This document shows, piece after piece, positions 15,398-21,620 of a stretch of DNA of 64,000 bases. Both the position numbers and the translations under genes were made by a program. Origin of the DNA: Oenococcus kitaharae DSM 17330 (GTDB lineage: Bacteria; Bacillota; Bacilli; Lactobacillales; Lactobacillaceae); contig NZ_CM001398.1 in assembly GCF_000241055.1 (NCBI RefSeq), forward strand, positions 1,351,163-1,415,162, written 5' to 3'. The notes beneath the pieces are model-generated. The model saw only the letters and a program-made list of their open reading frames with translations, made no database searches and was not told the DNA's origin. How positions within the stretch are numbered: the stretch's first letter is position 1; the number at the start of each line of letters is the position of its first letter.

Positions 15398-16210
15398 TTA
15401 GTGGCTATTCAGCAATTTGCCAACAACTGGAATCTGCCCCAAAGAGGCAACTTGGTCGCTCGAAACAACGATCGTATTCGAATTAGATTTGGCTAAATCG
15501 GAAAAAGCGTTAATGCTTTGATTCTGAAAGTATTTGTCGTCGGCTTCTCTTAAACCAGCCTGGACAGTATCGATACGATACTTTTCGGCATCGGCCCGGC
15601 TTTTGGTTGCATCTGCCTCAGCTTTGGCAGTGGCCATAATCGCATCATTTTTGGCTTTAGTCGTTAATTCAATCGATTTGGCTTCACCTTCAGCCTGTGC
15701 GATTGTGGCAACACGCTCACGATCGGCCGTCAGCTGTTTGTCCATGGCTTCTTGAATGGCACGGGAAGGGGTCAATTCATCGATATTGATTCGGTCAACA
15801 TTGATGCCGTAAGTGTTTGTCAAATCACCAATGGCTGTTGCCAATTCTTGGTTAATCCGAGCCGTTGCGCCGAGCGCTTCATTGAGGTCCATGCGTCCGA
15901 TAATGTCACGAAGATGTCCACGAACCAATTGTGCCATTGATTCGACCGAATCCGTGTTTTCATATTCGTATTTCACTGCATCGGTCACGTGATAGTTCAA
16001 AGTGACGCTAGCCGATACATCTGCGTTATCTTTTGTGATAACCGAATAATTCGGCAGTTTGAGCGGGTTCATTGCCAAACTGACTTTTTTAATTCCCTGA
16101 AAAAAAGGAATATAAAAGTGAATTCCGGGTTCGACGCTGTTGCGGTATTTGCCCAAAGTTTCCACCAGACCGCGATTGTTCTGCGGTACGATCTTGAAAA
16201 ATATTGCCAT
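15398..16210 (-). CDS. SPFH/Band 7 (stomatin-prohibitin-flotillin) protein without an N-terminal membrane anchor
   Basis: A 270-residue SPFH protein. Residues 1-160 form the Band 7 domain (ETLGKYRNSVEPGIHFYIPF near the start). About 155-215 is an Ala/Glu/Lys-rich coiled coil of the flotillin type, followed by a 55-residue tail. Most stomatin-like bacterial proteins start with a transmembrane hairpin; this one begins directly in the domain, and AGGAGA just before the ATG supports that start. It probably forms oligomeric rings, soluble or peripherally attached. The upstream gene, 9 bases away in the same operon, carries an NfeD-like domain, the classic partner of SPFH proteins. Confidence 0.85.
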   Translation of the reverse strand: MAIFFKIVPQNNRGLVETLGKYRNSVEPGIHFYIPFFQGIKKVSLAMNPLKLPNYSVITKDNADVSASVTLNYHVTDAVKYEYENTDSVESMAQLVRGHLRDIIGRMDLNEALGATARINQELATAIGDLTNTYGINVDRINIDELTPSRAIQEAMDKQLTADRERVATIAQAEGEAKSIELTTKAKNDAIMATAKAEADATKSRADAEKYRIDTVQAGLREADDKYFQNQSINAFSDLAKSNSNTIVVSSDQVASLGQIPVVGKLLNSH

Positions 16211-16219
16211 GTGTTTCTC

Positions 16220-16561
16220 CTAATTTGTTTCTTCAATTTTTCTTAGCGTTAAAACATTGCCGCTCGCTTCTAAAATAACGTAATTAGCCGTTTTATCGAC
16301 TTTTTGGTTATCCTCGATCAAGTAGCGGTAATAGATACCGGAAACATCGACAAGGCCGTTTTTGTCGTTTATTTTCCTGCCTGGCACAGTCGTACCGACA
16401 AATTGTCGATCTTCAAAAGAACTGTTTTCAACATTTTTCTCAAGGACTTTTGTAATATAGGAATTCACACTCCGCTGATCCGCTGCGGCCAACCGCGTGA
16501 TTTTCTCATGCAGTTCCGGATCTATTCGAAGCGCAATATTGCCAGATTTCTTCTCAACCAC
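16220..16561 (-). CDS. Ribbon-helix-helix (HicB-type) protein with a C-terminal NfeD-like OB domain
   Basis: A 113-residue protein in two parts. Residues 7-42 (NIALRIDPELHEKI, then RSVNSYITKVLEK) match the ribbon-helix-helix DNA-binding domain found in HicB-family antitoxins. Residues 54-111 (DVSGIYYRY, GNVLTLRKIEE) resemble the small beta-barrel domain of NfeD/STOPP proteins, which usually partners SPFH proteins. The NfeD assignment is my own pattern match and is less certain than the RHH one. No HicA toxin gene is adjacent. Transcription continues into the SPFH gene. A perfect 15-base palindrome lies 38 bases upstream of the start, a plausible autoregulatory operator. Confidence 0.7.
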   Translation of the reverse strand: MVEKKSGNIALRIDPELHEKITRLAAADQRSVNSYITKVLEKNVENSSFEDRQFVGTTVPGRKINDKNGLVDVSGIYYRYLIEDNQKVDKTANYVILEASGNVLTLRKIEETN

Positions 16562-16599
16562 TTAGATACCTCCTGACCGTCATTGTAAATATCGTTTTG

Positions 16600-16614
16600 A
16601 TATCATAATGATAT
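16600..16614. promoter_or_regulatory. 15-base palindrome upstream of the RHH/SPFH operon (candidate operator)
   Basis: ATATCAT-A-ATGATAT is a perfect inverted repeat of 7-base arms around one base. It lies 38 bases upstream of the RHH start codon, and a TACAAT box on the reverse strand lies just beyond it, so bound protein would sit near the transcription start. RHH repressors typically bind such short palindromes and control their own operon. Function inferred. Confidence 0.5.
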
Positions 16615-16766
16615 AAATATTGTAGCATCTTTTGAAGCTTTAAAAACGTTTTTCGCTCAATCATATCTTTCTTGGATTACACTAAATGTTATAGCACGAC
16701 GGTGTTTTTGATAAATAGCCTAGAGCCGTATCAGCACTGTTAGCAGCACGTTCTGAAAGGTGAGAG

Positions 16767-20450: not shown

Positions 20451-21620
20451 TTAGTTTTTGTTCTCATACAGATCCACGAGACGTTTGCGTAAAGCATCAT
20501 CATAAGCCGTCAGATACAAACCGTATTTGCCACGCTTAATCAGCACATTCAGGACATTAGCAATAAAATCTTTGTATTCTTCCCTCGTGAATTGAATGTC
20601 TTGGCGCTTTTTGAAAATTTCTTTGTGTGAATATTTTTCCGGGATAATCGTCATACTGTCTGTCTTTTCGTCATAGCCGAAAGATGGCCCGATAATCATA
20701 CCGACATAATTCAAATCAAATCCTTGGAGCGTGTAAATCGTCCCGACTTGTGCAATGGAAGAGGTCCTCTTAGCCCAGTGTGTCCGCTGCGGATCCCATT
20801 CATCCCAAGGCAGAGAAAAAGTATCCATTTCAACATTGTGGCGGCCATCAATACGAGGAAAACCCGAAGTTGCCACCACCCTGCTTAAGCCGGCTTCTTG
20901 GTTTTTCTTTTTGATTTGTTCATACAAAGCACCAGCAGTCGAAAACACTTTGAAGTCAAAATTACTGTTTGTCGGAAAGGGTTTTAAGGGCTTTTCGGCA
21001 GTTAAATCATCCATCCAGCGGACTTGGTCATCGCTAGCAACCATGCGGTACTGGAAATCCATATTAAACAGCTGATAAGGATGATCGCCAATCGTTTGCC
21101 TTAATAATTTTTTAGACCAATACATTTTTGACTGGAAGACTTGCGCAAAATCATAAACAACCACGACAATTTTGGCTAAATTCATCAAGTCTGTCAGCTG
21201 ATTTTGGCCCCGATAATGCGCATAAGGTTCCGATTTGGAATAAAGCAAATGTGCCTCATCAACGAAAATAACATCATATTTCCAATGATTTTTTTCGGCA
21301 TGATTAATCAGCGGCGTCGGGCGTAAAATATCTTTTTCAGCCATGCCAGGTATATCATCTGCTAAATCTTGATAAGCCTTGAAGAGTTCAGGATGATTAA
21401 CTACCAAAGCCGTTTTATAACGTTTATCGGTCATATATTTTGTGACCAGGCGCATCAAAACCACTGACTTGCCAGTGCCGGCAGCCCCTTCGATAATGGC
21501 GACGGCATGCTGTTTGCCATTGAGATATTTGCCAATGAAAGTGTTCATGTCGGAGATAGTCTTGTTTTGGCTATCCGATAAATGGTCAATCATAAATTGG
21601 TCTTTTAGAATTTTATTCAA
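20451..21620 (-). CDS. DUF2075 P-loop ATPase/helicase-like protein
   Basis: A 389-residue protein with Walker A EGAAGTGKS near residues 44-52, Walker B VIFVDEAHLL around 116-125, and later helicase-like blocks (VGTIYTLQGFDLNYVG). This matches DUF2075, a superfamily 1-type ATPase domain found alone or fused to nuclease or Schlafen modules. No nuclease domain is attached here. Its role is unknown; relatives are scattered in accessory regions. The gene starts 24 bases after the MerR gene and may be co-transcribed with it. Confidence 0.8.
   Translation of the reverse strand: MNKILKDQFMIDHLSDSQNKTISDMNTFIGKYLNGKQHAVAIIEGAAGTGKSVVLMRLVTKYMTDKRYKTALVVNHPELFKAYQDLADDIPGMAEKDILRPTPLINHAEKNHWKYDVIFVDEAHLLYSKSEPYAHYRGQNQLTDLMNLAKIVVVVYDFAQVFQSKMYWSKKLLRQTIGDHPYQLFNMDFQYRMVASDDQVRWMDDLTAEKPLKPFPTNSNFDFKVFSTAGALYEQIKKKNQEAGLSRVVATSGFPRIDGRHNVEMDTFSLPWDEWDPQRTHWAKRTSSIAQVGTIYTLQGFDLNYVGMIIGPSFGYDEKTDSMTIIPEKYSHKEIFKKRQDIQFTREEYKDFIANVLNVLIKRGKYGLYLTAYDDALRKRLVDLYENKN

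Follow-up and report, generated by a model that had tools for sequence, protein, structure and literature searches.

A ribbon-helix-helix NfeD-like partner of an SPFH protein in Oenococcus kitaharae and its conserved operator-like site

Background

The SPFH–NfeD pair QmcA–YbbJ of Escherichia coli (PDB 8z5g), which forms a cage of 26 heterodimers (PMC13086221), is among the closest described relatives of the locus considered in this report. The locus lies in a stretch of 64,000 nucleotides of Oenococcus kitaharae DSM 17330 (contig NZ_CM001398.1, positions 1,351,163 to 1,415,162), referred to here as the window, and consists of a gene for a protein that joins a ribbon-helix-helix (RHH) DNA-binding domain to an NfeD-like OB domain, here called RHH-OB, followed by a gene for an SPFH protein. 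It resembles QmcA–YbbJ in that the two genes are adjacent, the SPFH protein is closest to QmcA, and the OB domain matches YbbJ, but the SPFH protein is without the N-terminal segment that QmcA has. The locus is probably, if by no means certainly, an SPFH–NfeD operon with an RHH-bearing partner that represses its own transcription and docks on SPFH through its OB domain, so that expression is matched to the assembled scaffold.

In classical NfeD proteins, hydrophobic stretches precede the OB domain (PMC2636767), where here there is an RHH domain. The C-terminal domain of PH1510 (3wwv) and the soluble domains of NfeD proteins (2exd, 3cp0, 2k14) have the same OB fold and the same role in the operon, yet in these families the OB domain follows membrane stretches, and the NfeD1b type also has a ClpP protease domain (PMC2636767). 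The Arc, CopG, and HicB repressors and the RHH antitoxins share the RHH fold, an arginine in its beta-strand, and tandem half-sites at their own promoter, but here an OB domain together with an SPFH protein takes the place of a toxin. PutA is an RHH autorepressor that moves to the membrane and is a single redox enzyme; the fold and possibly the logic of sequestration are alike, whereas in the present locus DNA binding and scaffold are in two proteins.

Permanent anchoring in the membrane has been said to unify the SPFH proteins, the vault being the exception (PMC13100048, PMC12624060), and the role of the NfeD partners has been called unclear (PMC13086221). SPFH proteins without predicted membrane domains, SPFH8 and SPFH9, were noted earlier (PMC2636767, section 11), and the absence of a helix is therefore not new by itself. 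Searches of open-licence PMC papers turned up no description of an NfeD partner that binds DNA; in the sole paper where SPFH, NfeD, and ribbon-helix-helix occur together, the third of these terms comes from the reference list (PMC8656257). In a study of O. oeni, an SPFH domain-containing protein is among the changed, apparently down-regulated, proteins, and the part of this paper that is available does not mention the SPFH-partner operon (PMC13209313).

The RHH-OB and SPFH gene pair

Both genes are on the minus strand. The RHH-OB gene (16220..16561, 113 amino acids, GTG start) is separated by 9 bp from the SPFH gene that follows it (15398..16210, 270 amino acids, ATG start), and it adjoins SPFH in relatives as well. 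The palindrome ATATCATAATGATAT is at 16600–16614, 38 bp ahead of the GTG, and occurs once in the window. This pair and its palindrome had been pointed out in a preliminary description made from the DNA letters, and the coordinates, the RHH and SPFH domains, and the position of the palindrome were all confirmed.

The SPFH protein matches Band_7 (PF01145, E 1.8e-35) and is 100% identical to that of O. kitaharae CRBO2176. Its best match in the PDB is QmcA (E 1e-27), with residues 5–266 aligned to QmcA residues 20–294. In RHH-OB, residues 5–40 match the HicB/RHH family PF05534 (E 1.1e-9) at 38.5 bits, against a curated cut-off of 21, and the RHH domain is assigned to residues 5–47 (16421..16549, minus strand), the place of the N-terminal membrane helices of classical NfeD. 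Residues 1–48 of the AlphaFold2 model (pLDDT 84.7, pTM 0.54) align with AtaR2, VapB12, PutA, Arc, and CopG (Z 6.6–7.1; PutA 6.7). The RHH domain that had been proposed on first inspection is thus borne out by both the Pfam cut-off and the modelled fold.

An operator-like site upstream of RHH-OB

The sequence ATATCA-N3-TGATAT, of which the palindrome is the sole perfect copy in the 1.84 Mb genome by pattern scan, is present within 150 bp upstream of RHH-OB in most of the related loci. Of 90 loci, 42 have it without a mismatch and 59 with no more than one, compared with shuffled means of 0.0 and 0.2, respectively (one of the 91 RHH loci was dropped for short upstream DNA and one genome is counted twice). 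There are 76 matches in the 13,500 upstream bases of the RHH loci, as against one in 290,155 other bases of these loci. Partner genes lacking the RHH domain have no such site, even at two mismatches (0/34), and among the loci from named genomes the operator is found in 52 of 70 with the RHH domain and in 0 of 9 with the OB domain only. The commonest distance between half-sites, TGATATCA, across the RHH loci is 11 bp (53 pairs), which is about one helical turn. In the window a second copy with one mismatch overlaps the first, shifted by 11 bp (16589..16603, pattern scan), making three half-sites in all. On these counts ATATCA-N3-TGATAT is a conserved, dedicated operator-like site at the promoter of the RHH-OB gene itself.

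The site is also associated with Arg12 of the RHH strand, being present in 50 of 61 relatives with this residue and 0 of 17 without it (Fisher p 3e-10; 78 of 79 rows, which are related to one another, with L073 dropped for short upstream DNA). Arg12 presumably corresponds to Arg13 of Arc. A palindrome not conserved upstream of orthologues would have counted as a refutation in the preliminary description; most orthologues do have it, and this conservation, together with the single perfect genomic site and the association with Arg12, supports the self-regulation that had been suggested.

The palindrome by itself was rejected as evidence. There are 8 perfect 15-mers with 7 bp arms in the window, and 22–23% of shuffled versions of the upstream DNA reach the score of the palindrome, so it is the shared motif that counts; the palindrome is significant because it is conserved.

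Twelve further sites with one mismatch occur in the genome, 10 of them inside open frames of at least 100 codons; those outside long frames are L298 and L301. A control with the reversed pattern gave 0 sites compared with 14 for the operator, which plainly read would point to enrichment; because it contains TAG, however, the reversed pattern serves poorly as a control where DNA is coding. A stricter, 14-base form of the operator is matched in 10 of 101 genomes of the family, at the known operon in six and elsewhere in four (L183, L185, L186, L190), and has no match in the genome of the window. A possible extended -10 box was seen by eye directly upstream of the operator (16619..16627, minus strand); a scan for consensus promoters names another -10 box, with a number of matches near chance.

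The NfeD-like OB half

The second half of RHH-OB, residues 48–111 (16229..16420, minus strand), aligns in the model with the stomatin-operon-partner domain 3wwv at Z 8.0 (2.0 Å over 60 residues), with 3cp0 at Z 7.0, and with YbbJ in 8z5g at Z 6.9. The fold claim rests on the second alignment, by VIA, in which just the top row reaches Z 8; the E-values of Foldseek are weak, although Foldseek alone also ranks 3wwv first (E 0.014). The viral library yielded no match at 0.001.

Profile comparison links the same half to NfeD in two steps. The RHH-OB tails match standalone OB partners that lie outside the RHH clade, including partners of membrane-anchored SPFH (hhalign E 1.3e-10), and the standalone OB partners match NfeD (E 2.7e-6). 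An earlier profile, A2, included OB-only proteins belonging to the RHH clade itself (L036, L077, L110, L120–L123), and these rows inflated its links (E 1.1e-12, 6e-7, and 1e-17), of which 1e-17 is that from the RHH-OB tails to standalone OB and 6e-7 that from standalone OB to NfeD. The rerun without those rows, A6, has the gene in the window as its sole match in this genome (E 7.5e-4). Of five standalone OB partners scanned, four have NfeD as the best or sole family (E 0.0003–0.043), while the fifth, L155, has no Pfam match. PF01957 is matched by 21 of 79 relatives of RHH-OB at E up to 1, at best 3e-4. By the two-step profile link and the predicted structure, the C-terminal half of RHH-OB is an NfeD-like OB domain, as the preliminary description had supposed; a different fold in this half was another of the outcomes by which that description would have been refuted.

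The N-terminus of the SPFH protein

The SPFH start codon is preceded by just 3 in-frame codons, and residue 5 is paired with QmcA residue 20 in the alignment. There is therefore no room for an N-terminal membrane helix such as that of QmcA, and the missing anchor remarked on earlier is a genuine feature of the gene. The SPFH orthologues are split between those in which a strongly hydrophobic N-terminal segment is present and those in which it is absent, the latter including short hydrophobic N-termini such as MAIFF, MPFGI, and MLFF. In the lineage of the window the SPFH protein may be either cytosolic, as the preliminary description suggested, or peripherally bound to the membrane.

In some loci, from two genera, there is an extra small basic open reading frame or an in-frame extension of SPFH between RHH-OB and SPFH (L028:1118-1456, which has no Pfam match, and upstream of SPFH in L050, L070, L073, and L075). 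Several of these start, as judged by eye, with a short, possibly amphipathic stretch, which could be another membrane tether. In L032 a small protein with one hydrophobic stretch (2343-2633) overlaps the SPFH stop codon, and in L127 SPFH is preceded in frame by an N-terminal segment that contains a hydrophobic stretch and could belong to it.

Distribution and other DNA-binding fusions

In 60 related genomes, the 113 amino acid protein is matched in 19 and SPFH in 41, and the pair is adjacent in 19/19. All but one of these 19 matches span both domains, the exception being G007, where the OB half alone is matched; in G024 there is an extra open reading frame between the genes. Among the best 80 of 199 SPFH relatives in named genomes, all Lactobacillaceae-type, RHH-OB precedes SPFH in 70, an OB protein only in 9, and no partner was found in 1. 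The genera with RHH-OB include Oenococcus, Pediococcus, Leuconostoc, Weissella, Levilactobacillus, Lentilactobacillus, Companilactobacillus, Liquorilactobacillus, Furfurilactobacillus, Paucilactobacillus, and Convivina.

A wider survey of the family found SPFH, at E up to 1e-20, in 306 of 397 genomes; the named and other genomes overlap, and the counts from the two sets are therefore not independent. From these matches 136 loci were chosen (one genome twice, as L057/L126, and the fragments L138, L140, and L149 included), and an upstream OB partner is present in 125. With the membrane helix called by a hydropathy cut on the SPFH N-terminus, 89 loci have RHH and no helix and two have both, 22 have the helix and OB only and five have OB only and no helix, and another N-terminal region is found in six with the helix and one without (L036, which is in fact a short OB protein); the RHH call in L039 is weak, and L127 is counted as lacking the helix. 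No OB partner was found in the other 11, nine with the helix, including L128, L131, L133, and L134, and two without. Farther out in the family and order, the upstream gene often encodes an OB protein of 64–86 amino acids, and the SPFH protein has the membrane helix. A search of 250 genomes of the class with profile A2 gave no other match at E up to 1e-4, in a set that is mostly of other families and says little on Lactobacillaceae.

A quick tree of 106 of the 136 rows (L021, L126, L138, L140, and L149 were removed by hand and the other omitted rows as near-copies), with several long-branch warnings and no inferred root, requires a minimum of 4 changes in the membrane helix and 5 in RHH. A strict reciprocity of helix loss and RHH gain was rejected, with both present in Convivina (L260, L270), neither in Apilactobacillus (L264, L265, and others), and a non-significant pairs test. 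Given these genera and the loci with a helix in which no partner was found, the exchange of helix for RHH is a trend of one large lineage and not a strict rule.

The OB partner is also fused to other DNA-binding domains. In L152 it is joined to a MazE/AbrB-type domain (PF04014, E 4.9e-10), and the gene lies behind a perfect palindrome with 13 bp arms that is matched by 0/300 shuffles. In L148 and L150 it has a helix-turn-helix (HTH) domain that does not reach the Pfam cut-off (E 0.066 and 0.0012), though standalone relatives do (2.7e-14); the model of this protein matches the DNA-binding protein TraN at Z 8.1 and the MerR-type NmlR at 6.2, with the OB half on YbbJ at 5.6. These two loci share ATTAACG-N4-CGTTAAT before the start, with palindrome p of 0.023 and 0.073; of the OB-only controls, 3/27 are also at p<0.05 (L047, L049, L147). 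Such fusions are rare, since full-length MazE-OB is found in 1/301 and HTH-OB in 2/301 genomes, and the SPFH proteins paired with them retain the membrane helix.

Two further arrangements were seen beside membrane-anchored SPFH. OB partners with a different N-terminal region adjoin it in L044, L048, and L154, and a protein of 438–466 amino acids is in place of the OB partner in L041, L142, and L144.

Neighbouring genes in the window

At 20451–21620 there is a protein with a Schlafen group 3-type helicase domain (PF09848, E 2.9e-97), the N-terminal part of which has PADLOC matches to Nhi (4.2e-12) and AbiO (3.9e-10). It is one of seven window proteins scanned against Pfam, the others being SPFH, RHH-OB, UbiA, a polyprenyl synthase, an M1 peptidase, and a 78 amino acid open reading frame.

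Regulation of the operon and alternative explanations

In the favoured explanation, the RHH domain stands where classical NfeD has its membrane helices, and RHH dimers would bind the tandem ATATCA-N3-TGATAT sites at the promoter, repressing the two-gene operon that encodes them, a step strongly supported by the comparison of upstream regions. Autoregulation of the operon by RHH-OB through the operator is, on the same grounds, well supported. The OB domain would then dock on SPFH subunits, by analogy with YbbJ on QmcA, and assembled SPFH could draw RHH-OB off the operator or alter its binding there. Expression of the operon would thereby be matched to the amount of assembled scaffold, and transcription may in this way be coupled to SPFH assembly, which in the lineage of the window would concern a protein that also lacks the membrane helix and is located either in the cytosol or peripherally on the membrane.

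Several results weigh against this explanation. The operator is missing, at up to one mismatch, from 31 of the 90 RHH loci, and a motif-free palindrome test flags just 28/90 at p<0.05, or 37/90 with other settings. For Arg12 and the operator the tree gives five starred independent pairs, of which an average of 3.3 show the two together and none the opposite (median p 0.25); for loss of the helix and gain of RHH there are three such pairs (median p 1). RHH-OB of the window has no PF01957 match of its own in Pfam at E up to 1, staying below the NfeD cut-off, and when the RHH-OB tails are compared with NfeD directly, the profile match is weak (Prob 6%, E 0.0057).

It is quite conceivable, if somewhat short of an even chance, that the regulator is sequestered at the membrane, with SPFH peripheral on the membrane and RHH-OB shuttling between operator and membrane as PutA does. 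This differs from the assembly-coupled operon in location alone and agrees with it in all else. Hydrophobic residues and lipid-modified side chains attach flotillin to membranes (PMC13100048), the protein here begins with a short, hydrophobic N-terminus, and DNA-binding fusions are also found beside membrane-anchored SPFH (L034, L112, L148, L150, L152), but 89 of the 91 RHH loci lack the N-terminal membrane helix by the hydropathy cut.

RHH-OB might instead be a plain autorepressor, the OB domain no longer reporting on SPFH assembly and either aiding dimerization or being the remnant of a partner domain. The evidence from the operator requires the RHH half alone. The OB half is the better conserved, however, with the only invariant columns among the relatives, G75 and Y78, and 26/66 positions with an entropy below 1.6 bits compared with 11/47 in the RHH half, and OB partners without RHH remain beside SPFH in the 22 loci with and the five without the helix, which makes this explanation rather unlikely.

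That RHH-OB ties SPFH scaffolds to the chromosome and organizes DNA, with no regulation of the operon, is very improbable: the architecture would join a large oligomer to DNA, but the sole perfect site in the genome is at the operon's own promoter and 10 of the 12 other sites with one mismatch are in long frames. Least probable of all is a type II toxin-antitoxin module with SPFH in the place of the toxin, for although the RHH domain matches antitoxin-type families, the order of regulator then partner is antitoxin-like, and another of the fused domains is MazE-like, SPFH is commonly found with a partner lacking a recognized DNA-binding domain, is to our knowledge not a known toxin family, and has no HicA-like match near it among the seven window proteins scanned.

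A broader form of the assembly-coupled operon can be put forward tentatively. Assembled SPFH rings would be a sink for a DNA-binding NfeD partner, making a switch that counts scaffold. Lactic acid bacteria would have acquired a DNA-binding SPFH partner on three or more occasions, from folds not related to one another (RHH, MazE/AbrB, and MerR-like HTH), each with its own promoter palindrome, the SPFH protein of the main lineage forming a cage without a membrane-spanning helix and perhaps soluble.

Implications

Fifty genomes with an SPFH1 protein but without NfeD were noted in 2009 (PMC2636767), and in some of these the partner may be present, reduced to its OB domain. Should the assembly-coupled operon prove true, a compact two-gene system with a transcriptional readout would let SPFH assembly and the contact with its partner be followed by a reporter in tractable food bacteria. 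Many lactic acid bacteria have such a scaffold without a membrane anchor, together with a DNA-binding partner that probably represses both genes through the conserved upstream site, and by this means the cell may sense the amount of scaffold it has made.
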